NCBI RefSeq assembly: GCF_000308775.1
Contig: NZ_BAGJ01000269.1
Location: 1 to 64,000 of the forward strand
Direction of reading: 5' to 3'
DNA: 64,000 nt
From: Nocardia testacea NBRC 100365
GTDB taxonomy: Bacteria; Actinomycetota; Actinomycetes; Mycobacteriales; Mycobacteriaceae
A program made the translations under genes and the position numbers. Shown here piece by piece: positions 24,611-40,067 of the stretch (the stretch's first letter is position 1; every line of letters starts with the position of its first letter). Below the pieces are notes generated by a model. The model worked only from the letters and a program-made list of their open reading frames with translations. It was not told where the DNA came from and ran no database searches.

Positions 24611-24865
24611 ATGAACGATATCGAACAACCGATAGTCGATTATATCTCCGCCATGGTGGCCGAAACCGGCGGACCACCGGTCGATCGCGATACCCGGCTG
24701 CTCGAGGCCGGATTGCTGGACTCGATCCAACTGGCACGACTGGTGCAATTCCTCGAGGAGCGATTCGAGATCAGCATTCCGGATACGGAGATACGGGCGG
24801 AATTGTTCGAATCACCCGCGAGGACGGCGGCCTATGTTTCGCAGCGAGCGGCCGCGCCCGCCTGA
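24611..24865 (+). CDS. Acyl carrier protein
   Basis: An 84-residue stand-alone carrier protein. LLEAGLLDSIQLARLVQFLEE places the phosphopantetheine serine at about residue 38 (DSI instead of the usual DSL). The acidic helix and FEISIPDTEI helix 3 region fit. The ATG at 24611 follows AGGGGG. Its 3' end overlaps the ligase gene on the other strand by 34 bp. It probably receives an acyl chain from that ligase and hands it to the condensation-fold protein. Confidence 0.85.
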   Translation: MNDIEQPIVDYISAMVAETGGPPVDRDTRLLEAGLLDSIQLARLVQFLEERFEISIPDTEIRAELFESPARTAAYVSQRAAAPA

Positions 24866-26322
24866 AATTCGCACAGCCGCGCGCGGAGCACCTTGCCGGC
24901 CGGACTGCGCGGCAGTGCGTCGACGAACGCGATCTCGGCCGGCACCTTCTGCACCGAGAGCCTTTTCCGGGCATAACGGATCAACTCGCCGGCCGACACG
25001 TCGGCATCTGCGACCACGAACGCGATCAGCCGTTGGCCGGTACGCCGATCCGGGAGACCCGCCACCGCGGCTTCGGCGACAGCCGGCGAGGTCATGAGCA
25101 TCTCCTCCACCTCGATGGGGTCGATCTTGTAACCGGATACCTCGATCAGCAGCTTGCTGCGGCCACGGATGAAGATACGACCCTCGTCGTCGAGCGAGGC
25201 GAGATCACCGGTCCTGAACCAGCCCTCGTCGAACGCCTGGGCGTTGGCCACCTCGTCGCCCACATAACCCCGCATGAGCGAGGACGATCGAATCTCCATC
25301 TCGCCGACCGCGGGTCCGTATGCGGTATCCAGCGCGATGATGCGGGCCGTGGCGTCGCCCGCCGGCCTGCCCACCGAGTCCCAGGTCGAATCGGGATCGA
25401 CGGAGTCGTTGTGCGAGAACATGCTCGCCTCGGTGGAGCCGTAATCCTGGCGAAGTGTGACACCGAGGCGTTCGCTCACCGCTTCGAAGACCGGTCGCTT
25501 CAGGGCGGCGCCGCCCGAGAAGGCCAGGCGCAGCCCGAGTTCGTCACCGCCGGCCTGCCCGGCGATGATCTCGTACATTGCCGGAACTGCGCCCATGAAG
25601 GTGACGCGCTCGCCGGCCATGGTGTCGAGCAGTTTCCGGCGCGACAGCGGCAGCGGCAGGGGGTCGCTCCAGTAAAGCGTCGTCGCGCCGCCGGCGACGG
25701 CTTGCGTAGCGCCCAGCAGGAAGCCCATCGCGAAGTTGCCCGGCAGCATGTCGAGGACGATATCGTCGGGCCGGATGTCCCAGGCCGTGCTGGCTCGTTC
25801 GCTGTCGGCGACGAGCTCGGCATGGGTGTGCGGCACCACCTTGGGCAACCCGGTGGAGCCGGACGAGAAGAGGTAGAGCGCCGTCGTGTCACCCGGCAGG
25901 TCCGGCAGCCGAGCCGTCGCATTTCTTTCGGGCAGCGCACTCGTCAGGAAGAGAGGGGAATCGGGAGCCGCATCCGCGATCAGCATCTCGGCAGTGGCGG
26001 CAAGGCCGGGACTCGCGATAACGGCCTCCGGTCCGGTCTTTCGCGCGCACGCGGCGAGTTCGGATCGCGTGGCCGTCTCGCTGAGCGGCATCGCGATGGC
26101 ACCGAGGGCGAAGAGCGCATGGGCGGTGACGAAGAGATCGGGTGAGTTCGGAATCAGCAGCCCCACGGGATCGCCGCGCTCGATACCGTGCTCCCGCAAG
26201 CCGGCGGCGAGCCGGCCGATCCGCTCGACCAGAGCGGCGTAGGGGGTGAATACGCCGCCCTGCCGCAATCCGCTGGTGATCGGTGCCCGCGCTGTCGGCG
26301 CGAGCAGCCTGTCGTAGATCAT
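24832..26322 (-). CDS. AMP-forming acyl-CoA/acyl-ACP ligase
   Basis: A 496-residue ANL-superfamily adenylating enzyme. LFSSGSTGLPKVVPHTH is the P-loop-like A3 motif, DYGSTEASM A5, GWFRTGDLA A7 and PRSPAGKVLR the A10 lysine. It activates a carboxylic acid as acyl-AMP and passes it to CoA or, given the convergent carrier protein gene, to ACP. The substrate pocket cannot be read with confidence. It lies downstream of a LysR gene on the same strand (57 bp). Confidence 0.85.
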   Translation of the reverse strand: MIYDRLLAPTARAPITSGLRQGGVFTPYAALVERIGRLAAGLREHGIERGDPVGLLIPNSPDLFVTAHALFALGAIAMPLSETATRSELAACARKTGPEAVIASPGLAATAEMLIADAAPDSPLFLTSALPERNATARLPDLPGDTTALYLFSSGSTGLPKVVPHTHAELVADSERASTAWDIRPDDIVLDMLPGNFAMGFLLGATQAVAGGATTLYWSDPLPLPLSRRKLLDTMAGERVTFMGAVPAMYEIIAGQAGGDELGLRLAFSGGAALKRPVFEAVSERLGVTLRQDYGSTEASMFSHNDSVDPDSTWDSVGRPAGDATARIIALDTAYGPAVGEMEIRSSSLMRGYVGDEVANAQAFDEGWFRTGDLASLDDEGRIFIRGRSKLLIEVSGYKIDPIEVEEMLMTSPAVAEAAVAGLPDRRTGQRLIAFVVADADVSAGELIRYARKRLSVQKVPAEIAFVDALPRSPAGKVLRARLCEFQAGAAARCET

Positions 26323-26379
26323 CCCTACTCCGCGGGGCCGGTTCCCCCTGCCCGTAACGATAGGAGCGGGCTACGGCAT

Positions 26380-27276
26380 CTACAAGGCGCCGGCGATCTC
26401 GATACAGCATTCGACGAACGCTCGCACCACCGGATCCGGTTCCGACTCCGCCTTCCACACGACCCCCACCCGGCTCGGCGCCACGCCGGTCACCGGCCGG
26501 TACGTGATACCGGGCCGGGCATAGAACCGGGCGCTCGATTCCGGGGCCAGCGCGATCCCGTATCCGTTCGCGATCGCGCTCAGCCATTCGTCGGGCTGGT
26601 CGGTCACCGCGCCGATCCGCGGCGCCCGCCCGGTGCGTTCGTCCACTCCGAGCCAGTAGTCACGCCAGCCACCGGTTTCGGCCGGGGCCGCGACGAACGG
26701 TTCGTCGAGCAGGTCCGCGAAATCGATCGATTCCCGGCTCGCCAGCGGGTGCCCCGAGGCCAGGGCGACCCAGCGCGGTTCGCTGAACAGTTCCCGCACC
26801 CGCAGCCGGTCCTGTCCGGGGAACGGGAGCCGGAGCACAGCGATATCCACCTCGCCGTCGGCGAGGCCTCCGGTCGGGTCGCCCCAGGACGCCTGCCGCA
26901 TATCCACCCGCCAGCCGGGTCGCCGGCGGGCGAACTCGGCGATGATCCGCGGGGTGGCCTCGTTGGCGGCGCTGGCGAGGAAGCCGACCCGCAACACCCG
27001 TGCCGCGCGGCCCGCCGCCTGCCGGGTTTCCCGGAGCGCGAGATCCCATTCCCCCAGCAGCGCCGGTACCCGCCCGGCCAGCGCCTCACCGGCCGGGGTG
27101 AGCGCCATCCCCGCCCGCGAACGGGCGAAGAGTTCGACGCCGAGCAGGTTCTCCAGCTGCCTGATCTGCTTGGTCAGCGCCGGCTGCGAGACGAAGAGCC
27201 GCGCGGCGGCGCGGGTCAGATTCCCCTCCGCCGCCACCGCCGCGAAGTAGCGGAGCAACCGGGTGTCCACATCCAT
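26380..27276 (-). CDS. LysR-family transcriptional regulator
   Basis: A 298-residue LysR protein. LLRYFAAVAAEGNLTRAAARL and QPALTKQIRQLENLLGVELF are the HTH; the effector domain follows. It precedes the acyl ligase gene on the same strand and is divergent from a DoxX-like gene at 27432, so either may be its target. Confidence 0.87.
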   Translation of the reverse strand: MDVDTRLLRYFAAVAAEGNLTRAAARLFVSQPALTKQIRQLENLLGVELFARSRAGMALTPAGEALAGRVPALLGEWDLALRETRQAAGRAARVLRVGFLASAANEATPRIIAEFARRRPGWRVDMRQASWGDPTGGLADGEVDIAVLRLPFPGQDRLRVRELFSEPRWVALASGHPLASRESIDFADLLDEPFVAAPAETGGWRDYWLGVDERTGRAPRIGAVTDQPDEWLSAIANGYGIALAPESSARFYARPGITYRPVTGVAPSRVGVVWKAESEPDPVVRAFVECCIEIAGAL

Positions 27277-27431
27277 TCCGCCAGGTTATGGATGCAGGTA
27301 TTGGCGGGTTTCGGCAGGGCCCGCAAAGCTGGATTCCACAGCCGGCGCAGCCCTTCGGGCCGGGCGTCACGCCTGGCACCCGATGCCGCGGGGCACGCCG
27401 GATACATCCCTACGAACAGAAAGTCACTCCC

Positions 27432-27782
27432 GTGCACACCACCTACCTCGTCGTCGCCTTGGTCACCGTCGTGGCCAACGCAGGCATTGCCCTGGCCGAT
27501 TTCGTCCGGGCGCCATTCGTCCTGGCGAACTCCGCCGAGGTCGGCGTACCGTCCGGCTGGGTGCCGTGGCTGGGCGCGCTCAAACTCACCGGTGCGGCCG
27601 GCGTCCTGCTCGGCCTGCTCGGCCTGGAACCGCTGGGGTTCGCCGCGGCGGTCGGTCTGGTGCTGTTCTTCGCGGGCGCCCTGATCACACACCTGCGGGC
27701 GCGCGTCTACTACAACATCGCCTTCCCGGGCGCCTACTTCGCGCTCGCCCTGGCGACCGCCGCTCTCCCGGTCGCGCACTAG
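27432..27782 (+). CDS. DoxX-like small membrane protein
   Basis: A 116-residue protein with four hydrophobic helices. FVLANSAEVGVPSGWVPWLGALKLTGAAGVLLGLLG (read in parts) fits the DoxX-like family of integral membrane proteins, whose biochemical role is poorly defined. The GTG at 27432 begins the first helix. It is divergent from a LysR gene. The 211 bp to the next gene hold only the TetR operator. Confidence 0.75.
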   Translation: MHTTYLVVALVTVVANAGIALADFVRAPFVLANSAEVGVPSGWVPWLGALKLTGAAGVLLGLLGLEPLGFAAAVGLVLFFAGALITHLRARVYYNIAFPGAYFALALATAALPVAH

Positions 27783-27951: not shown

Positions 27952-27982
27952 CATTGAAATATTTTATTGACATTTTTCAATG
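27952..27982. promoter_or_regulatory. Perfect TetR operator before the NorD/NorQ operon regulator
   Basis: CATTGAAA and TTTCAATG are exact reverse complements around a 15-base AT-rich centre. It ends 11 bp before the TetR ATG at 27994 and probably overlaps the promoter. The half-site resembles that of the TetR operator at 33692 (TTTCAAT). Confidence 0.75.
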
Positions 27983-27993
27983 AATGTCCGCTA

Positions 27994-28611
27994 ATGGAAC
28001 GGGTGAACGCGCCGACGGAAAAGCCCAGGGGCCGGGAAGCCCAACGCCTCGAAACCCGGAGACGAGTGTTCGACGCCGCTGTCGCGGAGTTCCGGCGCAC
28101 CGGGACCGCCGGCGCCGATGTCGGTGCCATCATCGAGGCCGCCGGCGTCGCCCGCGGCACCTTCTACTTCCACTTCCCCAGCAAGGAACACGTCCTGCTG
28201 GAACTGGAGCGGCGCGAGGAAGCCCGGGTGGCCGGGGAGTTCGCCCGCTTCGTGGCGGCACCGCACGATCTGCCGGGCGCTCTGGCGAAAGCGGTCCGGC
28301 TGGTGCTCTCGGTGGAACGGCGAGTCGGCGCGCTGCTGTTCAAAGACGTCCTCGGATTGCACTTCACCCCGACCCGCCCGCCGGACGACGAATGGACCGA
28401 TCACCCGCTGATCGTGCAGGTGGTCGAGGAAATCACGCGAGCGCGCGAAGCGGGCGAGGCCGCCGCCGAGATCGATCCCTTCCACAGCGCGGTGTTCTTC
28501 CTCCTCGGTCTCTACGCCCTGCTGACCACCACCAGCGATTCCAGGTCGGTGCGCGCCGCCATGCTCGACAACTACGTCTCCACCGCACTGCGCGGTATGG
28601 AACCCCGATGA
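27994..28611 (+). CDS. TetR-family transcriptional regulator
   Basis: A 205-residue TetR protein. RLETRRRVFDAAVAEFRRTGT and ADVGAIIEAAGVARGTFYFHFPSKE (two parts) are the HTH. No Shine-Dalgarno precedes the ATG at 27994. It lies 61 bp upstream of, and on the same strand as, the operon of small membrane proteins and the NorD/NorQ-like pair, so it is probably the regulator and possibly the first gene of that unit. Confidence 0.86.
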   Translation: MERVNAPTEKPRGREAQRLETRRRVFDAAVAEFRRTGTAGADVGAIIEAAGVARGTFYFHFPSKEHVLLELERREEARVAGEFARFVAAPHDLPGALAKAVRLVLSVERRVGALLFKDVLGLHFTPTRPPDDEWTDHPLIVQVVEEITRAREAGEAAAEIDPFHSAVFFLLGLYALLTTTSDSRSVRAAMLDNYVSTALRGMEPR

Positions 28612-28672
28612 CCCGCGACCGCGGGCCGTCACCGCACACCGCGTCCAGCGGAACCGACCCACGGAGGTCAAC

Positions 28673-28771
28673 ATGTGGCAGGACATCGTTCGGCTGATCG
28701 CCGGCTGGGGCGCGATGGGCGCCGTGATCGGCTTCTGGTACTGGGTCATGCGCAACATCGGGACGTTCTGA
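28673..28771 (+). CDS. 32-residue single-span membrane peptide
   Basis: The short frame reads MWQDIVRLIAGWGAMG followed by AVIGFWYWVMRNIGTF. It has a GGAGG Shine-Dalgarno at a good distance and one membrane helix (about residues 5-26) rich in Gly and Trp. It begins the operon with the von Willebrand and AAA+ genes. I do not recognise a family; small accessory subunits of membrane metalloenzymes have this size and form, which is only an analogy. Confidence 0.7.
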   Translation: MWQDIVRLIAGWGAMGAVIGFWYWVMRNIGTF

Positions 28772-28793
28772 AACGCTCGGCGCCGGATCGACG

Positions 28794-30332
28794 GTGACCA
28801 TCGTGCACCCCAGCCCCTCCCTCTCCGCCGCGTCGCTGGAGCGCGGTTGCGCCCTGACAGCCGTGGCATTCTCCGAGCGGCGGCGCCACGGCGCGCGACT
28901 GGTCGCCGGGGAGCGCCGGGCGTTCGGCCTGGACCCCTCCCGCACGCTCGTGCAGGTGCCCTACCCGCCGCCACCGGATTGGACCCGTCGCACACTGACC
29001 TGCGGAATCGCCCTGCAATGCGCACCCTCCAAGGACCGTGTCGCCCGGTACCGGCTTCACGAGCTGTCCCCGCGCGAGCTCGCGAGTGTGGCGGTGGTGG
29101 AGGGCGGCGTCGCGATGGGCTGGATCGCGGTCCGGTTCCCGGGGCTGATCCCCGAACTGCGCCGGGTCCTCCCCGAACTCGAAGCCGCCGATCCCGAGAC
29201 CGACGGCCCGCAAATCCTCGACCGGGCGGTCGCGCTGGCCCGCTCCCGGCAGACCCCGCCGCCCCACCCACTGCTGGGCGACCCACCGCTTACCGTCCCG
29301 GCGCGGGGCCGTATGGCGGTGGCGCTGCGGCGGATGTACGGCCGGATGCCGTGGACGAGCCCGCGCACCGACTCCTATCGGGCCATGTCGGTGCCGGTCG
29401 GCGGGGAGGGCGGGGTCCGCAATCCCAACCTGCCGCCGCCGAGCCGGCCGGAGGACGACGAGATCGAGATCCGTCCCGATCGGCGCCCGGGTATCCCGTA
29501 TCCCGAATGGAACCTGTGGACCAAACGTTTCCGGCCCGACCACGTCGCAGTCCTCGAACGCCGGCAGCCGCCGCTCGGCCGTACTCCGGCACCGGTGGCG
29601 GTGGATGTGCGGCGCTGGTTCCGCCAGCCCACCCATCGCGCGCTCATCGGCGGCCGCGAGGACGGCGTCGACCTGGATATCGACCGCTATATCGGCCACT
29701 TCGTGGACCTGCGCACGGGTACCGCCGCCCAGCCCAGGGTCTTCCGGGACCTGGTGCCCGCCGCGCGCGATGTGGCCACCGCCGTGCTGCTCGACGGCAG
29801 TTCCTCACTCGGTGTGCACCAGGGTCGGACCTTCGCCCTGGAACTGGCGTGCGCGGACGCGCTGTCGGACGCCATGGCCGCGGCCGCACAGCAGCACGGG
29901 ATCTTCGTGTTCACCGGTAACACCCGCCATCGCGTGGAGGTGCGCTGTCTGAAGGATTTCGACGAACCGCGCTTCGTCCACCCCGGCGGCCTGGGCCTGC
30001 GGGCCGGCGGTTACACCCGCCTGGGCGCCCCGCTGCGACACCTGACCAGGCGTTTGCTCGACCGGCCCGCCGGACGCCGGTTGCTCATCGTGATCGGCGA
30101 CGGCCTGATCTCCGACGAAGGGTACGAGGGCCGATACGCCTGGGCCGATGTCGCGCACGCGGTCGAGGAAGCCGACGAGGCCGGGGTCGCGGTCTATTAC
30201 CTCGGTGTCGGCCCCGTCCGGGTCGACCCGCTGCCCGTGGTGTTCGGGCAGCGCCGATCGCAGCGCATCCACCGGGTCGAGGAGCTGCCCCGGGTCCTCG
30301 CCCATGTGCACCGCGAATTGGTCGCCATGTGA
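28794..30332 (+). CDS. NorD/CbbO-like von Willebrand factor A protein
   Basis: A 512-residue protein with a C-terminal VWA domain from about residue 330. The metal-ion-dependent adhesion site is DGSSS at residues 334-338, with the TRLGAP threonine near 409 and IGDG near 435. The preceding YPEWN-W-KRFRPDHVAVLER stretch is typical of NorD/CbbO proteins, which pair with NorQ/CbbQ ATPases to activate NO reductase or Rubisco. It lies between a membrane peptide and the AAA+ gene. At 512 residues it is shorter than many NorD proteins. The GTG at 28794 is one of several possible starts. Confidence 0.82.
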   Translation: MTIVHPSPSLSAASLERGCALTAVAFSERRRHGARLVAGERRAFGLDPSRTLVQVPYPPPPDWTRRTLTCGIALQCAPSKDRVARYRLHELSPRELASVAVVEGGVAMGWIAVRFPGLIPELRRVLPELEAADPETDGPQILDRAVALARSRQTPPPHPLLGDPPLTVPARGRMAVALRRMYGRMPWTSPRTDSYRAMSVPVGGEGGVRNPNLPPPSRPEDDEIEIRPDRRPGIPYPEWNLWTKRFRPDHVAVLERRQPPLGRTPAPVAVDVRRWFRQPTHRALIGGREDGVDLDIDRYIGHFVDLRTGTAAQPRVFRDLVPAARDVATAVLLDGSSSLGVHQGRTFALELACADALSDAMAAAAQQHGIFVFTGNTRHRVEVRCLKDFDEPRFVHPGGLGLRAGGYTRLGAPLRHLTRRLLDRPAGRRLLIVIGDGLISDEGYEGRYAWADVAHAVEEADEAGVAVYYLGVGPVRVDPLPVVFGQRRSQRIHRVEELPRVLAHVHRELVAM

Positions 30333-30409
30333 CGGCGCCATGGGCGAAGCCGCTCCGGGCACGACCGAACGCGGAACACACCCCCGCCGCCGGGCATCGA
30401 GAGGTCAGG

Positions 30410-31237
30410 ATGAATACCGAATACCACCCCGCCACCGGTCACGAGATCGCACTGTTCGAGAAGGCGTACCGGCGCCGCGTCCCGGTGATGCTCACGGGCC
30501 CGACCGGGTGCGGTAAGACCCGGTTCGTCGAGCATATGGGCAGGTTGCTGGATCGTCCGGTGGTCACCATCAGCTGCCATGATGATCTGACCAGTTCCGA
30601 TCTGGTGGGCCGGTTCCTGGTCACCGGCGGCGATGTGGTCTGGCAGGACGGGCCGCTCACCCGCGCCGTGAAGGCCGGGGCGATCTGTTACCTGGACGAG
30701 GTGGTCGAGGCACGGCACGATTCGCTGGCGATCCTGCACTCGCTCACCGATCACCGCCGCGCGCTCTATCTCGACCGCGCCGACGAAGTCGTGCCGGCGC
30801 CGGAGTCGTTCATGCTGGTCTGTTCCTACAACCCGGCCTATCGCAGTTCACTGAAGGAGCTGAAACCGTCCTTCCGGCAGCGGTTCGTGACGCTGGCAAT
30901 GGATTACCTCGACGCGGATCGCGAAGCCGCGGTGGTGGTCGCCGAGACCGGGGTCGAGCCACCGGTGGCCCGGCAGCTGGTCGGGTGCGCGCGCGTCATC
31001 CGCCAAGCCGACGAGATGTTCCATTTCGAACCACCGTCCACCCGGGTGCTGGTGACCACCGGACATCTGATCGCGGCGGGCGCGGACCTGCGGGAAGCCG
31101 CCCAAGCATGCATTCTGGCGCCGCTGAGCAGCAACGGCGCCCTCCACGAAGGTCTGCGTGAGATCGCGGCGGCCGCGCTGGCCGCCGCGGAAACCTCTTC
31201 CGCGCAGCGGGTTCCAGAAGGAGGACCACGACCGTGA
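30410..31237 (+). CDS. NorQ/CbbQ-like MoxR-type AAA+ ATPase
   Basis: A 275-residue AAA+ ATPase. Walker A is GPTGCGKT (residues 30-37), Walker B YLDEV (94-98), and SCHDDLTSSDLVGRFL with DGPLTRAVKAGAICYLDE (in parts) is nearly diagnostic of the NirQ/NorQ/CbbQ branch. SYNPAYRSSLKELKPSFRQRF is the sensor region. The ring works with a VWA partner to remodel a metalloenzyme, and that partner is encoded just upstream. The ATG follows GAGAGG. Its TGA overlaps the GTG of the next gene (GTGA). Confidence 0.92.
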   Translation: MNTEYHPATGHEIALFEKAYRRRVPVMLTGPTGCGKTRFVEHMGRLLDRPVVTISCHDDLTSSDLVGRFLVTGGDVVWQDGPLTRAVKAGAICYLDEVVEARHDSLAILHSLTDHRRALYLDRADEVVPAPESFMLVCSYNPAYRSSLKELKPSFRQRFVTLAMDYLDADREAAVVVAETGVEPPVARQLVGCARVIRQADEMFHFEPPSTRVLVTTGHLIAAGADLREAAQACILAPLSSNGALHEGLREIAAAALAAAETSSAQRVPEGGPRP

Positions 31238-31353
31238 ACGAACAGGATCGCCGGCGCCGGCGCGCGCTGATCGCCGTCCAGGTCTTCGCCTACGGATTTC
31301 TCCTGGCGATGTTCCTCATCCAACTGCACATGTACACGATCCGGGATTGGTAG
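31234..31353 (+). CDS. 39-residue single-span membrane peptide
   Basis: This short frame starts at a GTG overlapping the NorQ-like stop and ends with TAG 8 bp before the next gene. It reads MNEQDRRRRRALIAV, then a helix QVFAYGFLLAMFLIQLHMY, ending TIRDW. A basic N-terminus before the helix suggests the N-terminus stays in the cytoplasm. AAGGAGG lies just upstream. Tight coupling on both sides supports it as a real gene of the complex. Confidence 0.72.
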   Translation: MNEQDRRRRRALIAVQVFAYGFLLAMFLIQLHMYTIRDW

Positions 31354-31361
31354 GAGCCGTC

Positions 31362-32081
31362 GTGAAACTCTCCGCTGTCCCGCTGCCGTGGCGCACATCC
31401 ACGCCGAAACCCGGCGACTCCTACGACCTCCATCACGACGAATCCCGCCGCGCCCAGCGCGCGGCCGACCGGTGGCTCACCGTGGGCACCCTGCTGATGG
31501 GCACCCTGGTCCTCGGCATCGTCGGCCTGCCGATCTTCCTGCGCGGGGTGTGGTTACAGCGCAGAGCGCAGGAGTCCGGGCTGTCGGTACGTCCGATCAT
31601 CGTCACGCTGATCGGCTACCTGGTCATCCTGGACGCCGCGCTCAACAGCCTGGGCTGGGCCCTGGACCTCGTCGCCAACCACACCCTGATCAACCGGGTG
31701 ATCCTCACCGCCTGGGGCAATTTCTTCGACGCCGGCTACTTCTGGCACTACAACGAGCTGTGGATCGGTGGTTCGGGCGCGCCCGGCGAGAAGGGCTGGG
31801 AAGTCGCCCTGATGCTCACCGTGTTCCCGATGCGCATCGCCGCGGCGATCGCCTTCCTGCAGATGAAGCGGTGGGGACACCAGTGGATGATCGTCACCTG
31901 CTGGTTCGGGCTGGTGATCTGGATCGGTTACACGTTCAACATGACCATGTACGCCGATGTGCGCTACGACGGGGTCGTGCTGCCGGTGATCGGCTGGTGG
32001 CTCTACGACATCTTCTACATCACGCCGTTCCTGGCGATCCCCTATCTGCACACGGTCAACCGCGAGATCTTCTCCGACTGA
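31362..32081 (+). CDS. Polytopic membrane protein of unknown function in NorD/NorQ operon
   Basis: A 239-residue protein with five or six likely membrane helices (about 38-62, 78-102, 112-128, 146-168, 174-196, 204-229). Possible metal-site residues cluster near the membrane: NFFDAGYFWHYNELW (about 120-134), the Glu/His of GWEVAL and RWGHQW, and DIFYITPFLAIPYLH. I do not recognise a family; it is not a NorB-like oxidase. Its place after a NorQ/NorD-type pair suggests it may be the catalytic or core subunit those proteins act on. Confidence 0.7.
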   Translation: MKLSAVPLPWRTSTPKPGDSYDLHHDESRRAQRAADRWLTVGTLLMGTLVLGIVGLPIFLRGVWLQRRAQESGLSVRPIIVTLIGYLVILDAALNSLGWALDLVANHTLINRVILTAWGNFFDAGYFWHYNELWIGGSGAPGEKGWEVALMLTVFPMRIAAAIAFLQMKRWGHQWMIVTCWFGLVIWIGYTFNMTMYADVRYDGVVLPVIGWWLYDIFYITPFLAIPYLHTVNREIFSD

Positions 32082-32120
32082 CCGCGGCCGCAATCGCCTC
32101 CCTCTTCCGAAGGACTCCGC

Positions 32121-32555
32121 ATGAGCAAGAACCCCGCCCCCGCAGGCGATCCGGAGAAGGACGAACTGCCCCTGGGCACCACCGCGCCGTACGCGCGGAT
32201 GCACCGGTGGTTGCGGCGCGGTATCTTCGTCTGCCTGTTCGCGCTGGTCATCGAGGGCGCGTTCACGGTGCCGGCGCTGGCGCTGTGGTACGGCTGGCCG
32301 ACCCTGTCGTTCACCGAGATCTGCAGTGAACTGATGAAGGTCAGATACTCCGACGACACCCTCGAATGCGCGCATCCGTATCCGCTGTCCGGACCGCCCT
32401 TCGGCGGGCCACCCGAGGCGGCCGGCCAGCGGACCGCGCGCGACGATTGGAGTATCCAGCCGAAACCGGGCTGGGACCGGATCGGTTTCCGGGAGCTGGT
32501 CCGGATCCACGAGGACCGGCTGGCACGGGAAGCCGCGGCGCCCCCACCACGCTGA
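32121..32555 (+). CDS. Single-span membrane protein of unknown function in NorD/NorQ operon
   Basis: A 144-residue protein with one helix (about residues 34-58, [20 protein letters not shown]) and a C-terminal domain holding two cysteines (C68 and C83) and several His and Trp. The last part carries an amphipathic [15 protein letters not shown] helix. It ends the operon, 13 bp before a strong hairpin. No family is recognised. With the 239-residue protein and the two peptides it may form one membrane complex. Confidence 0.7.
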
Positions 32556-32567
32556 GGATCCCACGCC

Positions 32568-32598
32568 CGTGTGCCCGGCGATACCCGCCGGGCACACG
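32568..32598. terminator. Strong hairpin between convergent genes
   Basis: A perfect 13-bp stem (CGTGTGCCCGGCG and its complement) with an ATACC loop lies between the end of the NorD/NorQ operon and the dehydrogenase gene on the other strand. It could terminate in both directions. Confidence 0.75.
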
Positions 32599-32670: not shown

Positions 32671-33525
32671 TCAGGAGTACTTGTAGAACCCCTCTCCGGT
32701 GGCCACACCGAGCTTGCCCTTGTCGATGTAGTTCTCCTTCAACCAGCGGGCGAGACCTTCGGTTTCGGCACTGCTGCTCAGGATGTTGTAGGGCGTGGTG
32801 AGCCCGATGACGTCGAGGATCCGGAACGGGCCCATGGGCGCTCCGGTGGCGATCCGCCAGGTCTTGTCCACCGCCTCGGGTTCTGCGTAGTCGCCGGCGG
32901 CGAGTTCGATCGCGGCGTTCAGGAACGGCACCAGCAGCGAGTTCAGGACGTAACCCGACTTCTCCTTGTGCACCTCGATCGGCACCATGCCGATGGCGGC
33001 GGCGAACTCGACCACCGCGCCGAACACCGCGGGATCGGTCCGGTCGGTGCCCATGACCTCCGCGGTGTTGAACTTCCACACCTGGTTGGCGAAGTGCAGG
33101 GCCAGAAACCGGTCCGGGCGGCCGGTGAAATCGGCCATATCGCTGGGCAGCAGGGTCGAGGAGTTGGTCGCGAATATGGTCCGTTCGGGAGCCAGCTCGC
33201 CCAGCTTCCGGTAGGTCTGCCGTTTGATGTCGAGCACCTCGGGCACCGCTTCGATAACCAGATCGGCCTCGGCGACCGCGGCGCCGAGATCGGTGGTCAG
33301 GCCGATACCCGCGCGGGTCTGCTCGGTGAGCTCATCGGTCGCGCCCATCACTTCGTCGCGATAGGTGGCGGCGAGCCCGGTGAAACGCTCGCGCGCCGCG
33401 TCGAGTGCCTTGTCGTCGATGTCGTATGCCTGGACGCGGTATCCGTGGTACGCGGTCTGGAAGGCGATCTGGGAACCGAGCACCCCGGTGCCCAGTACCG
33501 TCACCGCGCGGATCTCGAGGGCCAT
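32671..33525 (-). CDS. 3-hydroxyacyl-CoA dehydrogenase
   Basis: A 284-residue NAD-dependent enzyme of the 3-hydroxybutyryl-CoA dehydrogenase family. TVLGTGVLGSQIAFQTAYHGY is the NAD-binding motif, ATNSSTLLPSDMA holds the catalytic Ser/Asn region, LALHFANQVWKFNTAEVM the catalytic His, and GPFRILDVIGL the C-terminal domain. It oxidises 3-hydroxyacyl-CoA in beta-oxidation or the reverse. The TetR gene at 33740 is divergent from it, with a perfect operator between. Confidence 0.9.
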   Translation of the reverse strand: MALEIRAVTVLGTGVLGSQIAFQTAYHGYRVQAYDIDDKALDAARERFTGLAATYRDEVMGATDELTEQTRAGIGLTTDLGAAVAEADLVIEAVPEVLDIKRQTYRKLGELAPERTIFATNSSTLLPSDMADFTGRPDRFLALHFANQVWKFNTAEVMGTDRTDPAVFGAVVEFAAAIGMVPIEVHKEKSGYVLNSLLVPFLNAAIELAAGDYAEPEAVDKTWRIATGAPMGPFRILDVIGLTTPYNILSSSAETEGLARWLKENYIDKGKLGVATGEGFYKYS

Positions 33526-33691
33526 CGTCTTCTCCTTGTCGATCGATCGTGGGCGTATCGGGCAACCGGAGCCGACTACCGGAACCAGTACAACAGGGGC
33601 GGCCCGTCGCGGTGGGTGCGTGGCCCGCGCCTCCGTTTGCGATCGGATAACGCCTGAGGGCCAGTGCGCCCACCAGCATTTTCAAACAGTA

Positions 33692-33710
33692 TTTCAATCA
33701 ATGATTGAAA
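33692..33710. promoter_or_regulatory. Perfect TetR operator
   Basis: TTTCAATCA and TGATTGAAA flank a single central A, an exact 19-bp dyad. It is 29 bp before the TetR ATG and 166 bp before the divergent dehydrogenase start. Confidence 0.78.
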
Positions 33711-33739
33711 ACCGTCGGGCGCAATGGTTCACTGGCCGC

Positions 33740-34318
33740 ATGCCCCAGCGAGTCTCGGCCGCGACCCGCGAACGCCTGCTCACGGCCGCCGAACGACTGC
33801 TGCTCACCGAGCGCTACGACGACGTTTCGGTACGCCGCATCTGCACCGAGGCCGGGGCCAACCCCGCCGCCGTCCACTACCACTTCGGATCCAAGGAAGC
33901 CCTGGTGGCGGCCCTGCTCGAGGAGCGCCTCGGGGCACTGTGGGCCGACCGCCTCACCGCGGTCACCGCCGCCGCCGGACCCGTGGCCGATCTGGTCGAC
34001 GCGGTGCTCACCCCGTTCACCGATCTGGCAGCCGACCCGCTGGGCCGGCTGCACCTGCGTCTGCTCGCGCAATGCGTGATCGACCGGCAGGTCGGCCCGT
34101 GGCAGCAGCAGTGGTTCCGGATCGATTCGTGGGCCGGTCTGCTACCCGAGGTGGGCGAATGGGAGAGCCGGCGCCGCTGGATGCTCGCGTTCGACCTCAT
34201 CATCATGCGATTCGGCCGCGCCGCCGCCGAGGACCGGGCGCTGAGCCCACAGACCGTGGCCACTCTGCGCGCTTTCGTCGTGGCCGGGCTGACCGCACCG
34301 ACAGGAGACATATCGTGA
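33740..34318 (+). CDS. TetR-family transcriptional regulator
   Basis: A 192-residue TetR protein. RERLLTAAERLLLTERYDD and VSVRRICTEAGANPAAVHYHFGSKE (two parts) are the HTH. Its TGA overlaps the GTG of the downstream old yellow enzyme gene (GTGA), so they are co-translated. The operator upstream suggests it represses itself, the flavoenzyme and perhaps the divergent dehydrogenase. Confidence 0.88.
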   Translation: MPQRVSAATRERLLTAAERLLLTERYDDVSVRRICTEAGANPAAVHYHFGSKEALVAALLEERLGALWADRLTAVTAAAGPVADLVDAVLTPFTDLAADPLGRLHLRLLAQCVIDRQVGPWQQQWFRIDSWAGLLPEVGEWESRRRWMLAFDLIIMRFGRAAAEDRALSPQTVATLRAFVVAGLTAPTGDIS

Positions 34319-35520
34319 CCGATGTATTCGCCCCCGCCCCACTGGGGCCACTCACCCTGCGCAACCGGGTGATCAAGGCCGCGACCTTCGAAGGTCGCAC
34401 ACCGGACGCGCTGGTCACCGACGATCTGGTCGAATTCCATCGGGAGGTCGCGGCGGGCGGCGTCGGCATGACGACTGTCGCCTACTGCGCGGTCGCGCCC
34501 GGCGGCCGCACCGACCGCCACCAGATCTACATGCGCCCCGAGGCGGTGCCGGGCCTGCGCCGGCTCACCGATGCCGTGCACGCCGAGGGCGCGGCGGCCA
34601 GTGCGCAGATCGGCCATGCCGGGCCGGTGGCCAATTCCGCGTCCAATCGCCTTCCCGCGCTGGCGCCGAGCCGGATGTTCAGCCCACTCGGCATGAGCCC
34701 GATGAAAGTTCCCGACGCGGCCGAAATCCACGACCTGGTCACCGCCCACGCCGACGCGGCGCTGCTGGCGATCGAGTCCGGATTCGACGCGGTGGAAATA
34801 CATTTCGGGCACAACTACCTGGTGAGTTCATTCCTGAGCCCACTGCTGAACCGGCGCAAGGACCGCTACGGCGGCCCGCTGGAGAACCGGGCCCGGCTGG
34901 CCCGCGATATCGCCCGCCGGGTGCGCGAGGCGGTCGGTGACCGGATCGCGGTGACCGCGAAGTTGAATATGGACGACGGCGTCCGCGGCGGCCTGACTCT
35001 GCCGGAATCGTTGCAGGTGGCCGCGTGGCTGGAGGCCGACGGCGCGCTCGACGCGCTGGAACTGACGGCGGGCAGCTCCCTGCTGAACCCGATGCTGCTG
35101 TTCCACGGCGCCGCGCCGCGCCGCGAGTTCGCGAAAACACTCCCGGGGCCGGCCCGCTGGGGCTTCCGCCTGGTCGGCAAGGCATTCCTGCGCGAGTACC
35201 CGTACGAGAAGGCATACCTGCTCGAACGCGCCCGGCAGTTCCGCCGGGAGCTCACCATGCCGCTGGTGCTGCTGGGCGGTATCACCGACCGGGAGTCGAT
35301 GGATCTGGCGATGACGGAGGGGTTCGATTTCGTCGCCATGGGCCGGGCCCTGCTGCGGGAGCCGGATCTGTTGCGCCGCATTCGATCCGACGCGAGCACC
35401 GAATCCGCCTGCGTGCACTGCAACGAGTGCATGCCGACCATCTACAGCGGCACCCGGTGCGTACTGCGACTCGATCAGCTCGCGTCCACCGTCGCGGAGA
35501 AGCCGGCCGACGGCGAATAG
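34315..35520 (+). CDS. NADH:flavin oxidoreductase (old yellow enzyme family)
   Basis: A 401-residue FMN TIM-barrel enzyme. LGPLTLRNRVIKAATFEG, QIGHAGP and DAVEIHFGHNYLVSSFLSPLLNRR (two parts, with the catalytic HxxN-like His) are typical. The C-terminal part has a CVHCNEC cluster and a further Cys in GTRC, as in 2,4-dienoyl-CoA reductase-type members that hold a 4Fe-4S centre, but the second flavin domain is absent. It likely reduces enones or enoyl-CoA esters. Translation is coupled to the TetR gene. Confidence 0.88.
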   Translation: MTDVFAPAPLGPLTLRNRVIKAATFEGRTPDALVTDDLVEFHREVAAGGVGMTTVAYCAVAPGGRTDRHQIYMRPEAVPGLRRLTDAVHAEGAAASAQIGHAGPVANSASNRLPALAPSRMFSPLGMSPMKVPDAAEIHDLVTAHADAALLAIESGFDAVEIHFGHNYLVSSFLSPLLNRRKDRYGGPLENRARLARDIARRVREAVGDRIAVTAKLNMDDGVRGGLTLPESLQVAAWLEADGALDALELTAGSSLLNPMLLFHGAAPRREFAKTLPGPARWGFRLVGKAFLREYPYEKAYLLERARQFRRELTMPLVLLGGITDRESMDLAMTEGFDFVAMGRALLREPDLLRRIRSDASTESACVHCNECMPTIYSGTRCVLRLDQLASTVAEKPADGE

Positions 35521-35697
35521 GCGCCGCACGGGACGCGGAAGTCACAGTTCACGATATTCGTCAGCCCCAATTAACGAACACCTATTGAATGCGCCGTTGT
35601 TTAACGGTACGGTCTAGGCATCAGAGCAAAGCCGCACTCCCCCAGTGCGACTGCTTCCGCCACCGCCCCCGGGCGGCGCTACGACCGAGGACGAATC

Positions 35698-36096
35698 ATG
35701 CACCGAACCGCACGCACCCGCCGACTCGCCGTCCGGATCGCGGCCACCGCCGCGATCGCCCTGGCCCCGCTGGCACTCACCGCCGCACCCGCTCTCGCCG
35801 ACAACCAAGCGCCCGTGGTCACCGATGACACCACCGAGGTCCAGGACGTGAGCCGCCCCGGCCGGCACGGTCACGGCTACGGCGATCGCGGGTGGCACGG
35901 CCGCAACGACCACAGCTGGAACGGCCGGCACGACAACCCGATCGACTGGAACCGCGGCCGCAACCGCCACGACCGCGGCTGGGATCACGGCCGGCACAAC
36001 GACTGGGACCGCGGCTGGGATCACGGCCACCACCGTCCCGGTTTCGGTCTGCCCTTCCCGCGGATCTTCCTGCCCGGTACCGGCAGCGCCTTCTGA
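35698..36096 (+). CDS. Secreted His/Asp/Arg/Trp-rich protein
   Basis: A 132-residue protein with a clear signal peptide (cleavage expected after PALA, residue 34). The mature part is unusual: about 25 His/Asp/Arg-rich residues in repeats such as RGWHGRNDH, RGWDHGRHND and RGWDHGHH, then a short hydrophobic tail. Divalent metal binding is a fair guess from composition, not proven. It stands alone between the old yellow enzyme and gadB genes, in a 177-bp upstream region without other features. Confidence 0.75.
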   Translation: MHRTARTRRLAVRIAATAAIALAPLALTAAPALADNQAPVVTDDTTEVQDVSRPGRHGHGYGDRGWHGRNDHSWNGRHDNPIDWNRGRNRHDRGWDHGRHNDWDRGWDHGHHRPGFGLPFPRIFLPGTGSAF

Positions 36097-36160
36097 TACC
36101 TGAACAACGGCACATCGAACAAGTGTCGATAGACCTCGGGCAGGCCCGGCCCGAGACAGC

Positions 36161-36198
36161 GGAACCGGCCGGCCACGGCGACTGTGCCGGCCGGTTCC
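36161..36198. terminator. Bidirectional hairpin between convergent genes
   Basis: A perfect 13-bp stem (GGAACCGGCCGGC and complement) with a 12-base loop separates the His-rich protein gene from gadB. Confidence 0.7.
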
Positions 36199-36204
36199 AC
36201 TCGA

Positions 36205-37644
36205 TCACGACCCCGCCGGCCGCACTCCCGCGTGATGCGGCCGGATATCGGCCCCGTGCGAGAACGACGCGGCCTCGGCGCCCCGCTGCGGCGCCTGCTG
36301 GGACCGCAACCGCGGCAGTGCCCGTTGCAGCGCCTCGATCAGCAGATCGGCCAGGTCGTGGCTGAAACCGTTGCGGACCACCACGCGCAGGACCGCCAGA
36401 TCCTCCCGATCGGCCGGAAAGGTATAGGCGGGCACCAGCCAGCCCTGTTCGCGCAGCGCCGCCGATACATCGAAGACCGAATACCCCGTCTCGCCCTCGG
36501 CCAGCGTGAATGCGAAAACGGGCAGCTGCCGGCCGTCGGTGATCAGCCGGAACGGGCCCAGCTGCGCGATCCGGTCGGCCAGTGCGGAGGCCACCTCCCG
36601 GCAGTAGCCCTGCACCCGCGCGTAGCCGCGATGCCCCAGCCGCAGGAAGGTGTAGTACTGGGCCACCACCTGCGCGCCGGGCCGGGAGAAGTTGAGCGCG
36701 AAGGTCGGCATCTCCCCGCCGAGATAGTTCACCCGGAAGACCAGCGCGTCCGGTAGCGCGTCGGCGTCCCGCCACAGCACCCAGCCCACGCCCGGATAGA
36801 TCAGCCCGTACTTGTGACCCGAGGTGTTGATCGAGGCGACCCGGGGTTGCCGGAAATCCCATTCCAGCTCGGGATCGCAGAACGGCGCGATCATGGCGCC
36901 GGACGCCCCGTCCACATGCACCGGGATATCCCAGCCGTGCTCGGCCTGCACCCGGTCCAGCGCCGCGCAGATCTCGGCGACCGGTTCGTAGCTGCCGTCG
37001 AATGTGGATCCCAGGATCGCCACCACACCGATCGTATTCTCGTCGCAGCGGGCCGCCGCCTCCTCCGCGGTCAGGTGGAACCGCTCCCCCGACATCGGCA
37101 CCACCCGCGGTTCGACGTCCCAGTACTCGGCGAATTTCTCCCAGCACACCTGCACATTGATCCCCATCACCAGGTTGGGCCGGTCGGTCGGCTGCCCGGC
37201 CGCCCGGCGCCGCAGCTGCCAGCGTCGCTTCATGGCGAGTCCGGCCAGCATGCACGCCTCACTGGAGCCGGTGGTCGAACAACCGACGGCATGGTCGGGG
37301 TCGGCGGCGTGCCACAGATCGGCCAGGATCCGCACACATCGCTGCTCCAGTTCGGCGGTACGCGGGTACTCGTCCTTGTCGATCATGTTCTTGTCGAAGC
37401 ATTCGCTCATCAGCACCTGCGCCGCGGGCTCCATCCAGGTGGTGACGAAAGTGGCAAGGTTGAGCCGGGCGTTGCCGTCGAGCAGCAGTTCGTCGTGCAC
37501 GATCTGGTACGCGGTATCGGCGTCCAGCTCCCGGGCGGGCAGCCGGTTACGGGGCACCTCCAGCGGTTCCCGGGTGAACACCGGATTCACCGAGATATCG
37601 TCCCGGCCGGGACCACCGGGCCGAGACGGATGGGTCAATGCCAT
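36205..37644 (-). CDS. gadB: Glutamate decarboxylase
   Basis: A 479-residue PLP enzyme converting glutamate to GABA and consuming a proton. NTSGHKYGLIYPGVGWVLWRD carries the PLP lysine at about residue 278; HVDGASG supplies the Asp that pairs with the pyridine. FDKNMIDKDEYPRTAELE is a family hallmark. The ATG at 37644 follows GGAGGTCTCC. No glutamate/GABA antiporter gene is nearby, so a full acid-resistance system is not shown here. Confidence 0.94.
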   Translation of the reverse strand: MALTHPSRPGGPGRDDISVNPVFTREPLEVPRNRLPARELDADTAYQIVHDELLLDGNARLNLATFVTTWMEPAAQVLMSECFDKNMIDKDEYPRTAELEQRCVRILADLWHAADPDHAVGCSTTGSSEACMLAGLAMKRRWQLRRRAAGQPTDRPNLVMGINVQVCWEKFAEYWDVEPRVVPMSGERFHLTAEEAAARCDENTIGVVAILGSTFDGSYEPVAEICAALDRVQAEHGWDIPVHVDGASGAMIAPFCDPELEWDFRQPRVASINTSGHKYGLIYPGVGWVLWRDADALPDALVFRVNYLGGEMPTFALNFSRPGAQVVAQYYTFLRLGHRGYARVQGYCREVASALADRIAQLGPFRLITDGRQLPVFAFTLAEGETGYSVFDVSAALREQGWLVPAYTFPADREDLAVLRVVVRNGFSHDLADLLIEALQRALPRLRSQQAPQRGAEAASFSHGADIRPHHAGVRPAGS

Positions 37645-37985
37645 GGAGACCTCCACCAGCATTCGGACCGGACGGGACACCGCCCGGACAGGCGGCGATC
37701 CCGAGTATCGCCCGGCGAACGGCTGCCGCGGCGCACGGCGGGCCGCCCCGGCGGGTCGGGGCCCGCGCCCTGCTGCCGCGAGGTTCGCGGAGATAGGGTC
37801 CCGCGGCGCGATCGGGCGGGGGCGACCACTCCGCATCTGGGCGGGATTCGCCCCGGCACCGCACCGCGCGGGCTACGCTCGGCCGATCGGTCCGCATGCC
37901 GGCCGCTGTGCCCGGCATCGCCGAATCGTGGCGCGTTCCCCCTGGTCACACATCCACACATCCGCATCACCAGAGGAGGAGACCC

Positions 37986-38411
37986 GTGAAATCCGTCAAC
38001 GCGTACCTCATGTTCAACGGCAACGCCGAGGAAGCGTTCACCTTCTACCAGTCGGTGTTCGGTGGCGAACTGCAGCTGATCCGGTTCGGCGATATGGGCG
38101 AGGGCGCGAACCTGCCGGAGGAGGCCAAGGACCTGGTGGCGCATACGGCGCTGCCGCTGGCCGGGGCCGGCCAGATCCTGATGGGCTCGGACTGTCCGCC
38201 CGGCCAGACCGTCGACATTCCGCAACGACCGAACTTCACCGTATGTCTCGAGGTCGGCGACCGCGACGAAGCCGAGCGAGTGTTCGCCGCGCTGAGCGAG
38301 GGCGGGTCGGTGGATATGCATCTCGCCGAGACGGAATGGACCGAACTGTTCGGCATGCTCACCGACAAGTTCTCCATTCCGTGGATGATCGACTACAACT
38401 CGTCGCAGTAG
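37986..38411 (+). CDS. VOC-family protein (PhnB-like)
   Basis: A 141-residue protein of the vicinal-oxygen-chelate fold, PhnB-like branch. NAYLMFNGNAEEAFTFYQSVFGGEL and the C-terminal FGMLTDKFSIPWMIDY are characteristic. The start is a GTG after GAGGAG. The function of this branch is usually unassigned; it shares no clear operon with the next gene, though only 15 bp separates them. Confidence 0.86.
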   Translation: MKSVNAYLMFNGNAEEAFTFYQSVFGGELQLIRFGDMGEGANLPEEAKDLVAHTALPLAGAGQILMGSDCPPGQTVDIPQRPNFTVCLEVGDRDEAERVFAALSEGGSVDMHLAETEWTELFGMLTDKFSIPWMIDYNSSQ

Positions 38412-38426
38412 CCGTAGACCTCACCC

Positions 38427-40067
38427 ATGGGCACCGGGCGACCCGAGGCGCCGACGGCCCGATCCGGTTCCGGAACGGTGCTGGCCGTGCTGTGCGCGGG
38501 ACAGTTCCTCATGGCTCTGGACAGCTCGGTGATGAACGTATCCATGTCGACCGTGGCGCAGGACCTCGGCACGACCATCACCGGTATCCAGACCGCCATA
38601 ACCCTCTACACGCTGGTGATGGCGTCCCTGATGATCACCGGCGGGAAGGTCGGCGCGATAGTCGGCCGGCGGCGCGTCTTCGGGATCGGCCTGGTCGTAT
38701 ATGGACTGGGGTCGTTCGTCACCGGTCTCGCGCCGAATCTCGCCGTCCTACTGGTGGGCTGGTCGCTGCTCGAGGGGATCGGCGCGGCATTGATCATGCC
38801 GGCGATCGTGGCCCTGGTGGCGGCGAATATCCCGGCCGAACGCCGGACCGCCGCCTACGGTCTGGTCGCGGCGGCGGCCGCCGCGGCGATCGCGGTGGGC
38901 CCGCTGCTGGGCGGCGCGGTGACGACCTACGCCTCCTGGCGGCTCGTCTTCTTCGGCGAGGTGGTCGTGGTCGCGCTGATCCTGCTGCTGTTGCGCACGA
39001 TGAAGGACACGGCCGCCGAACAGGCCCACCTCGACTACCTCGGTTCGGCGCTGTCGATAGGCGGCCTGGCCATGATCGTGTACGGCGTACTCCGCTCGAG
39101 CGAATGGGGCTGGGTCCAGGAGCGGCCCGGCGCCCCGGCCGTGTTCGGCCTGTCACCGGTGATCTGGCTGCTACTCGGCGGGCTGCTCGTCCTCTATCTA
39201 CTCCGCGAGCGGCTGGCGGTATGCGTACGGACGGGACGGGAACCGCTCTTCGACCCGGAACTGCTGGGCAACCGGCAGCTCACCGGCGGTCTGGGCATGT
39301 TCTTCGCCCAGTTCGCGGTGCAGGCCGGGGTGTTCTTCACCGTTCCGCTGTTCCTCTCGGTGGTCCTCCAGCTCAGTGCGCTCGGAACCGGCGCCCGTCT
39401 GCTGCCGCTGTCGGTCGCGTTGATCGTGACGGCTGTCGGCATCCCGAAACTCGCACCTCGCGTGGGTCCGCGGCGCGTGGTCCGGCTGGGGCTGCTGTCC
39501 ATGACCGTCGGGATCCTGCTGCTGGCGGGCGGGATGGACCCCGGGGCGGACGCGCGCGTGGTCGCGGTCCCGATGCTGCTGATGGGCGCGGGCCTGGGTG
39601 CGCTGGCCTCACAACTGGGCGCGGTGACCGTCTCCGCGGTGCCCGAATCACGCAGTGCCGAGGTCGGTGGGTTGCAGAACACCGCCACCTACCTCGGCGC
39701 GTCGCTCGGCACCGCGCTGATCGGCTCCATCCTGATCGCCACCCTGACCTCGTCGGTCATCGATGAGATCGAGAACGATCCCGCCGTGCCCGCCGCCGTC
39801 CAGCAACAGGCCACCACCGAGTTGGCCGCCGGCGTCCCGTTCCTGTCCGACACCCAGTTGCGCGACGCGCTCACCGCCGCCGGGGTGGACGGACCCACCA
39901 CCGACTCGGTCGTCGCGGTCAATTCCGCGGCCCGCCTGGACGCGCTGCACACGGCGTTCGCGGCGACGGCACTGCTGGCCGTCCTCGCGCTGTTCGTTAC
40001 CCGGCGGCTACCCGAACGGCCCCTTGCCCCGGGGGGTGACGACACCGGACCATCCGTTTCCGGATGA
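38427..40067 (+). CDS. DHA2-family MFS drug exporter
   Basis: A 546-residue fourteen-helix EmrB/QacA-type proton antiporter. LCAGQFLMALDSSVMNVSM (the D1 helix) and GGKVGAIVGRRRVFGIGL (loop 2-3) are typical. It would pump a hydrophobic drug or metabolite outward. It starts 15 bp after the VOC gene, so co-transcription is possible; no regulator lies beside it. Confidence 0.88.
   Translation: MGTGRPEAPTARSGSGTVLAVLCAGQFLMALDSSVMNVSMSTVAQDLGTTITGIQTAITLYTLVMASLMITGGKVGAIVGRRRVFGIGLVVYGLGSFVTGLAPNLAVLLVGWSLLEGIGAALIMPAIVALVAANIPAERRTAAYGLVAAAAAAAIAVGPLLGGAVTTYASWRLVFFGEVVVVALILLLLRTMKDTAAEQAHLDYLGSALSIGGLAMIVYGVLRSSEWGWVQERPGAPAVFGLSPVIWLLLGGLLVLYLLRERLAVCVRTGREPLFDPELLGNRQLTGGLGMFFAQFAVQAGVFFTVPLFLSVVLQLSALGTGARLLPLSVALIVTAVGIPKLAPRVGPRRVVRLGLLSMTVGILLLAGGMDPGADARVVAVPMLLMGAGLGALASQLGAVTVSAVPESRSAEVGGLQNTATYLGASLGTALIGSILIATLTSSVIDEIENDPAVPAAVQQQATTELAAGVPFLSDTQLRDALTAAGVDGPTTDSVVAVNSAARLDALHTAFAATALLAVLALFVTRRLPERPLAPGGDDTGPSVSG

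Follow-up and report, generated by a model that had tools for sequence, protein, structure and literature searches.

A seven-gene locus of Nocardia testacea NBRC 100365 combines a NorQ/NorD-type motor, which is known in kind, with the genes of a putative four-part membrane complex, a client that is new; the unit is real and conserved, and it seems not to have been described before. The locus occupies positions 27952–32555 of the stretch analysed (assembly GCF_000308775.1, contig NZ_BAGJ01000269.1, positions 1–64,000, 64,000 nucleotides in all, in the following called the window). A gene for a TetR-family regulator is followed by six genes, coding for a 32-residue peptide (pep32), a VWA protein, an AAA+ ATPase, a 39-residue peptide (pep39), a polytopic membrane protein of 239 residues (M239) and a single-span protein of 144 residues (M144). 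We favour the interpretation that the operon encodes a membrane enzyme complex that is matured by its own NorQD-type motor, and hold it to be probable. Among the matches listed in the open-licence literature, neither titles nor abstract openings describe the operon. Its features are as follows (aa, amino acids; E, E-value):

27952–27982, no strand: candidate TetR operator with 8-bp arms CATTGAAA (27952–27959) and TTTCAATG (27975–27982), 15-bp spacer, 11 bp upstream of the TetR start
27994–28611, + strand: TetR-family regulator, 205 aa (PF00440, E 1.2e-12)
28673–28771, + strand: pep32, single-span membrane peptide of 32 aa with FWYW and a C-terminal TF (79 matches, 51 distinct sequences aligned)
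28794–30332, + strand: NorD-like VWA protein, 512 aa, with the DxSxS-T-D pattern of a metal-ion-dependent adhesion site (MIDAS) (solved NorD 9qhd_G, E 6.1e-31; PF00092, E 4.8e-5)
30410–31237, + strand: NorQ/CbbQ-like AAA+ ATPase, 275 aa (AAA_5, E 1.2e-35; CbbQ_C, E 8.8e-21); several starts are possible, of which 30410 was chosen
31234–31353, + strand: pep39, single-span membrane peptide of 39 aa (97 matches, 74 distinct sequences aligned)
31362–32081, + strand: M239, polytopic membrane protein of 239 aa without a Pfam or NCBIfam family, with conserved Asp, Asn and Glu both within the predicted membrane helices and between them
32121–32555, + strand: M144, single-span protein of 144 aa without a Pfam or NCBIfam family (105 matches, 88 distinct sequences aligned)

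All seven reading frames are open, and adjacent genes overlap by 4 bp at one extreme and are 77 bp apart at the other. The gene content, sizes and tight packing given by an earlier, sequence-only reading of the window hold true. That reading had also placed a perfect operator in front of the TetR gene. Both 8-bp arms are indeed perfect, but the right arm differs even among the nearest relatives (L031, L032) and different palindromes are present at other loci; the element is thus a candidate only.

The chaperone pair is recognisable by strong matches to solved structures. In the ATPase, AAA_5 (122.9 bits, cut-off 22) and CbbQ_C (74.4 bits, cut-off 20.6) both score over their cut-offs, the solved NorQ 9qh4 and CbbQ 6l1q are matched with E 1.3e-73 and E 1.4e-69, respectively (5c3c is matched as well), and both Walker motifs are present (Walker A, GPTGCGKT at residue 30; Walker B, CYLDE at residue 93). 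The VWA protein matches a second solved NorD chain, 9qh6_G (E 5.4e-30), besides the one listed above (9qhd_G, matched over residues 230–510); taken together, the matches cover about residues 219–511, the best stretch beginning at residue 219. Its MIDAS pattern is complete, with DGSSS at residue 334, the T of GGYTR at 405 and the D of IGDG at 434; all 72 near-full-length homologues have DxSxS (anywhere in the protein), and 54 of them have the exact GGYTR. Judged by these matches, the AAA+ protein is a member of the CbbQ/NirQ/NorQ family and the VWA protein a NorD/CbbO-type adaptor, as the sequence-only reading, pointing to the DGSSS site, had proposed. It had also noted the absence of norB, norC and Rubisco genes: none is found in the operon, to which our NorB search was limited, and the genome contains no Rubisco large subunit.

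With the Rubisco activase CbbQ/CbbO the window pair shares the ATPase family; the client of CbbQ/CbbO is soluble, however, and CbbQO is not known to insert metal. The window locus resembles that of the NorQ/NorD pair of the cytochrome c NO reductase (cNOR; norCBQDEF) in that both combine a CbbQ/NirQ/NorQ-type ATPase with a MIDAS-bearing VWA adaptor and encode the pair beside an integral-membrane client, which in the window is putative. In contrast to norCBQDEF, this client is not NorCB, a TetR gene stands ahead of the unit, the membrane genes lie on both sides of the pair, and the VWA protein is shorter than NorD (512 versus 638–646 aa), being detectably NorD-like only from about residue 219 onward. 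According to excerpts of two articles (PMC13036017, PMC9976466), the non-haem FeB of cNOR is inserted by NorQ/NorD, and the remodelling of cNOR is proposed to come about through a twist of NorD that ATP drives, the MIDAS site or a linker contacting acidic residues of the membrane client; PMC13036017 describes CbbQO as an activase.

To assess conservation we scanned named genomes and found 334 relatives of M239, the best 80 of which were kept; they represent 77 distinct loci, and locus counts refer to these. The nearest relatives found are from Nocardia fusca (96% identity) and N. rhamnosiphila (95%), and the loci are spread over Nocardia, Mycobacterium and the genera split from it, Gordonia, Rhodococcus phenolicus and Aldersonia. 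All six genes were found in 72 of the 77 loci (missing at L089, which is a contig end, L064, L037, L039 and L057), and in 71 of the 72 the order pep32-VWA-AAA+-pep39-M144 is kept on one strand, with M239 usually between pep39 and M144; only at L063, where all six are present, does the order differ. An arrangement repeated to this extent is not due to chance. The gene set is thus conserved beyond Nocardia, as the sequence-only reading had left to be seen, and is common to many mycobacteria. In 46 of the 72 units a second copy of M239 is present, often directly after the TetR gene. Pairwise distances across the 72 units correlate more closely between M239 and M144 (r 0.91) and between VWA and M239 (r 0.83) than between TetR and VWA (r 0.76) or TetR and M239 (r 0.73), a weak argument for a single machine because these values still contain the shared species history. 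Within the genus, M239 was found in 30 of 148 genomes, and across the phylum in 9 of 396; in the class of the one distant carrier, G267, a profile scan recovered it in 1 of 249 genomes, namely G267 itself. The unit is an accessory trait of sporadic occurrence, with its centre in the family to which the window belongs.

Two distant loci show reduced or altered forms of the unit. At L124, from another class of the phylum, a pep32-like open reading frame (ORF), an 83-aa M144-like ORF, M239 (40% identity), VWA (36%) and AAA+ (50%) follow in a row, succeeded by an APH/EcKL-type kinase, with a putative cytochrome P450 (assigned by eye) and catabolic-looking genes nearby. At L108, on a plasmid of Mycobacterium branderi, TetR, a 35-aa membrane ORF, an 82-aa ORF and M239 (36%) are present without VWA and AAA+. 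In the stretch 7600–8004, the 82-aa ORF, annotated as hypothetical and adjacent to M239, looks like pep32 fused to the span of M144, by weak matches (E 0.28 and 0.025). An aldehyde dehydrogenase, a GMC oxidoreductase, a mycofactocin-coupled short-chain dehydrogenase/reductase (SDR) and a Rieske protein are encoded nearby.

The coupling between motor and membrane genes was assessed in the 201 genomes of the family. The 19 genomes with a close VWA homologue (E 4e-134 or better) are also the 19 that carry M239 (the raw count for M239 was 21, from which the partial matches in G871 and G885, E 7e-4, were set aside as spurious). Each of the 19 genes for this homologue lies within 5 kb of M239, and none of the 19 lies within that distance of a gene for an AveC-like protein; conversely, 30 of 31 M239 copies have the close VWA homologue within 5 kb. 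A pair that regularly stands without the membrane genes, the pattern that the sequence-only reading had named as damaging to it, is not what we found, because M239 accompanies it in every one of these places. Tight units of pep32, pep39, M239 and M144 without VWA and AAA+ do exist, in five places (L037, L039, L057, the first unit of L178, and L181; L179 and L180, from the genome collection, are the same loci as L037 and L039 and were counted once), so the link between pair and M239 is strict in one direction only. These five units mark the four genes as a separable membrane module. The four genomes with such chaperone-less units also carry a full unit (L055, L058, L178, G923), which suggests that one motor could act in trans on several membrane modules.

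A second class of VWA protein, with 31–36% identity over about residues 170–509, was found in at least 28 places in 19 genomes; the list was made at an E setting of 1e-20 with about seven candidates scored per genome and is not a full census. In 27 of the 28 places, a polytopic gene of the AveC-like family (PF17198, searched in the 201 family genomes) lies within 5 kb, and M239 in none of the 28. The only place without AveC, G470:C22 (L182, 6733–8576), has an open VWA gene beside a 53-aa ATPase stub, and this pair looks decayed. At eight second-class loci that we read (covering peptides of 35 aa and more), AAA+ partners and polytopic proteins are present, with a TetR gene close by in four; Pfam assigns the seven polytopic proteins scanned to AveC_like (E 8e-105 to 1.5e-65). 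AveC-like genes adjoin second-class VWA/AAA+ pairs at L166, L167, L171, L172, L174 and L176. Seen from the other side, 29 of 58 AveC-like genes have a listed VWA gene within 5 kb and the others do not. There are thus two classes of NorQD-type pair, each tied to its own polytopic membrane family, and the 27 of 28 AveC neighbours mean that NorQD-type motors repeatedly accompany polytopic membrane proteins. A link between MoxR/VWA proteins and AveC is described nowhere among the matches listed in the open-licence literature.

The AveC-VWA/AAA+ units of mycobacteria and Nocardia resemble the window operon in coupling a polytopic membrane protein to a NorQD-type pair; they differ in the membrane family, as judged by profile, and in the distant VWA class. 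Homology of M239 to AveC is not supported: even with E allowed to reach 10, none of the 65 M239 members matches PF17198, and the hhalign probability is 0.3–4.5%. A D-x-x-x-N pattern is seen, by eye only, in both families. In four genomes (G220, G537, G896, G923) the M239 unit and the AveC-VWA unit stand about 86–97 kb apart, a hint that both share a catabolic region. At L183 (8268–9187) and L185 (7639–8537), short (261-aa) AveC-like proteins follow a single-span peptide of 45 or 38 aa, with no VWA or AAA+ gene in the stretch read; here, another polytopic protein has a small-peptide partner.

The four membrane proteins themselves match nothing in Pfam at E up to 1, haem-copper oxidases and other enzyme families included, and NCBIfam returned a single irrelevant line (pep39, E 0.065); a known enzyme family for M239 was thus not found in either database. 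Even at E up to 10, the 65 M239 members of alignment A2 (122 of 153 sequences were eligible by locus and length, 64 were kept at <93% identity) gave only scattered weak Pfam lines (DUF4149 for 10, YWFCY for 8, EBP for 5, DUF3082 for 3, and four families with one each). An M239 profile (A3) matched no PDB sequence at E up to 10, and phmmer with the L124 protein gave a single unrelated line (E 0.16). In an alignment of ten diverse M239 members, counting polar residue types only, D36, R77, D91, N95, D102, D123, N131, E143, K144, R158, K169, Y190 and R201 are invariant, with no His or Cys among them; in another alignment H107 is nearly invariant. The absence of invariant His and Cys speaks against a haem, copper or His-rich iron site; from its residues, the pattern would rather fit acid/base chemistry or carboxylate ligation. 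Conservation extends to the small peptides: pep32 keeps an R, a W, FWYW and TF invariant over its 51 distinct sequences, and in M144 two Cys downstream of the span are invariant in the 88 distinct sequences of the Nocardia/Mycobacterium group. AlphaFold2 predicted the window M239 with a mean pLDDT (predicted local distance difference test) of 71.3 and a mycobacterial homologue with 72.3. In the window model the better parts are about residues 21–100 and 141–190. The prediction is poor around D123 and N131, a stretch that may pack against partner subunits, unless the shallow alignment is to blame.

The surroundings of the 77 loci contain a DAP_DH-like dehydrogenase (31 loci), an SDR cluster (20), P450 (18) and EcKL/APH kinases (11), each cluster being identified from one or two scanned members; of two members of the SDR cluster, one passes the cut-off for mycofactocin-coupled SDRs. 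Taken as raw frequencies, with no background comparison, these neighbours suggest catabolism of hydrophobic compounds. In the window, Pfam finds an AMP-binding ligase, a LysR regulator and a DoxX-like protein upstream (24832–27782) and, downstream (32671–40067), a 3-hydroxyacyl-CoA dehydrogenase, a TetR regulator, a flavin mononucleotide (FMN) oxidoreductase, a pyridoxal-phosphate (PLP) decarboxylase, a glyoxalase-like protein and a transporter of the MFS family; one 132-aa ORF among the flanking genes has no Pfam family.

From these observations we infer two modules. The first would be an integral-membrane complex with M239 as the likely catalytic or binding core and pep32, pep39 and M144 as single-span subunits; the second a cytosolic maturation motor, in which a NorQ-type AAA+ hexamer would drive the NorD-type VWA adaptor. 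By analogy with NorQD on cNOR, the adaptor would use its MIDAS site to dock on the membrane complex and would be twisted by ATP hydrolysis so that the complex is opened, assembled or loaded into its active state; with its MIDAS and ATPase motifs conserved, the window pair could carry out this cycle on the M239 complex. The TetR regulator would switch the unit on upon arrival of the substrate, most likely a hydrophobic (steroid-, terpenoid- or lipid-like) catabolite that is converted inside the membrane, with chemistry that is more probably acid/base, on the conserved Asp, Asn and Glu, than redox. As a tentative generalisation, which may well prove too broad, NorQD-type motors could be general mechanical activators of polytopic non-redox membrane enzymes in lipid, steroid and polyketide-like metabolism, acting without metal insertion, one class serving the M239 complex and the other the AveC-like spirocyclase relatives.

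Several findings weigh against an enzyme complex with a dedicated motor. Neither of the two M239 models, which are of middling confidence, has a convincing PDB match or an enzyme fold: the best Foldseek E-values are 4.0 and 1.7, and the best VIA-align Z-scores of 7.2 and 7.4 are in the range of unrelated helical bundles. Pep39 was not found at L124. The motor is not always alongside M239, as is seen at L064 (a short contig of a metagenome-assembled genome) and at L108. Catabolic genes are frequent in genomes of this kind in any case, the neighbour counts being raw ones, and the ten window flanking genes scanned (DoxX-like, LysR and 3-hydroxyacyl-CoA dehydrogenase among them) include no P450 or kinase. 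Finally, the membrane complex may transport or signal.

A transporter, an ion channel or a sensor complex that needs NorQD-type remodelling would account for the lack of an enzyme family match, and a polytopic protein with single-span subunits fits a channel or transporter. At L171, moreover, two six-span and several one-span proteins are encoded behind the AveC-AAA+-VWA genes, a group that we take to resemble a lipid-import (mce) operon. We nevertheless consider such a function distinctly unlikely, as the known NorQ/NorD and CbbQ/CbbO pairs have enzymes as their clients (excerpt of PMC13036017) and the second-class paralogues adjoin AveC-like proteins, whose namesake AveC is an enzyme (excerpt of PMC13303154). 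The sequence-only reading had thought of a metal-containing oxidoreductase, into whose M239 subunit the motor would insert Fe, Cu or Mn. The window pair is a clear homologue of the FeB-inserting NorQ/NorD, and D91, N95, D102, D123 and E143 could bind a metal; set against this are the lack of invariant His and Cys across the diverse set, the lack of any haem, copper or di-iron family match, and the activase function of the related CbbQO. We judge metal insertion rather unlikely, and the label of an oxidoreductase, for which we found no support, should be dropped until a metal is shown. That the pair serves a client elsewhere, cNOR or Rubisco, and stands beside the membrane genes by coincidence is highly improbable: its nearest solved relatives do serve these two enzymes, but the coupling to M239 in 19 of 19 places with AveC in none, the same order in 71 of 72 loci and the genome without a Rubisco large subunit (NorB was sought in the operon only) all argue otherwise.

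M239 could also be a divergent EXPERA-type protein (EBP/TMEM97/TM6SF superfamily), its complex isomerising or binding a sterol-like compound. Like EBP, TMEM97 and TM6SF2, it is a small polytopic protein with conserved acidic residues (for EXPERA proteins, see the excerpt of PMC4263179), and one distant member, the L124 protein, marginally matches PF05241 (EBP; E 0.0015), as do five of the 65 closer members at best E 1.7; in G220 and G537, EBP-like genes are neighbours of AveC-AAA+-VWA genes. The L124 match remains below the cut-off (19.3 versus 25.7 bits), however, the window M239 does not match PF05241, and neither hhalign nor forward and reverse hidden Markov model searches with 1,125 decoy proteins support homology. 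With a bacterial-EBP profile, the L124 protein ranks first against the decoys, but its E-value is 0.16 and that of a decoy 0.2, and the best 40 rows contain no further M239; in the reverse search the best EBP ranks 92nd, the hhalign probability is at most 0.24%, and no EBP chain (nor AveC) is among the fold matches listed for the two models, an absence that by itself rules out neither. We regard this identity as unlikely, and the apparent link to the EBP sterol isomerase as a weak lead. A bacterial EBP/EXPERA-like family with ADTRY-type motifs was seen at L166 (9872–10663), L167 (11841–12617), L168 (9010–9798), L169 (8342–9202) and L170 (8382–9224); in Pfam, the L168, L169 and L170 members are below the cut-off and that of L166 stays unmatched at E up to 1. 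Those of L166 and L167 lie near AveC-AAA+-VWA genes.

If a membrane enzyme complex with its own NorQD-type motor is indeed what the operon encodes, a large set of membrane proteins in mycobacteria and nocardiae would have gone unrecognised as clients of MoxR/VWA motors. The M239 and AveC-like families, whose chemistry is barely described, would become testable through their chaperones, and the activity of some AveC-type relatives may depend on a partner motor. The finding would also bear on the question of whether NorQD acts by inserting a metal or by forcing open membrane enzymes more generally.

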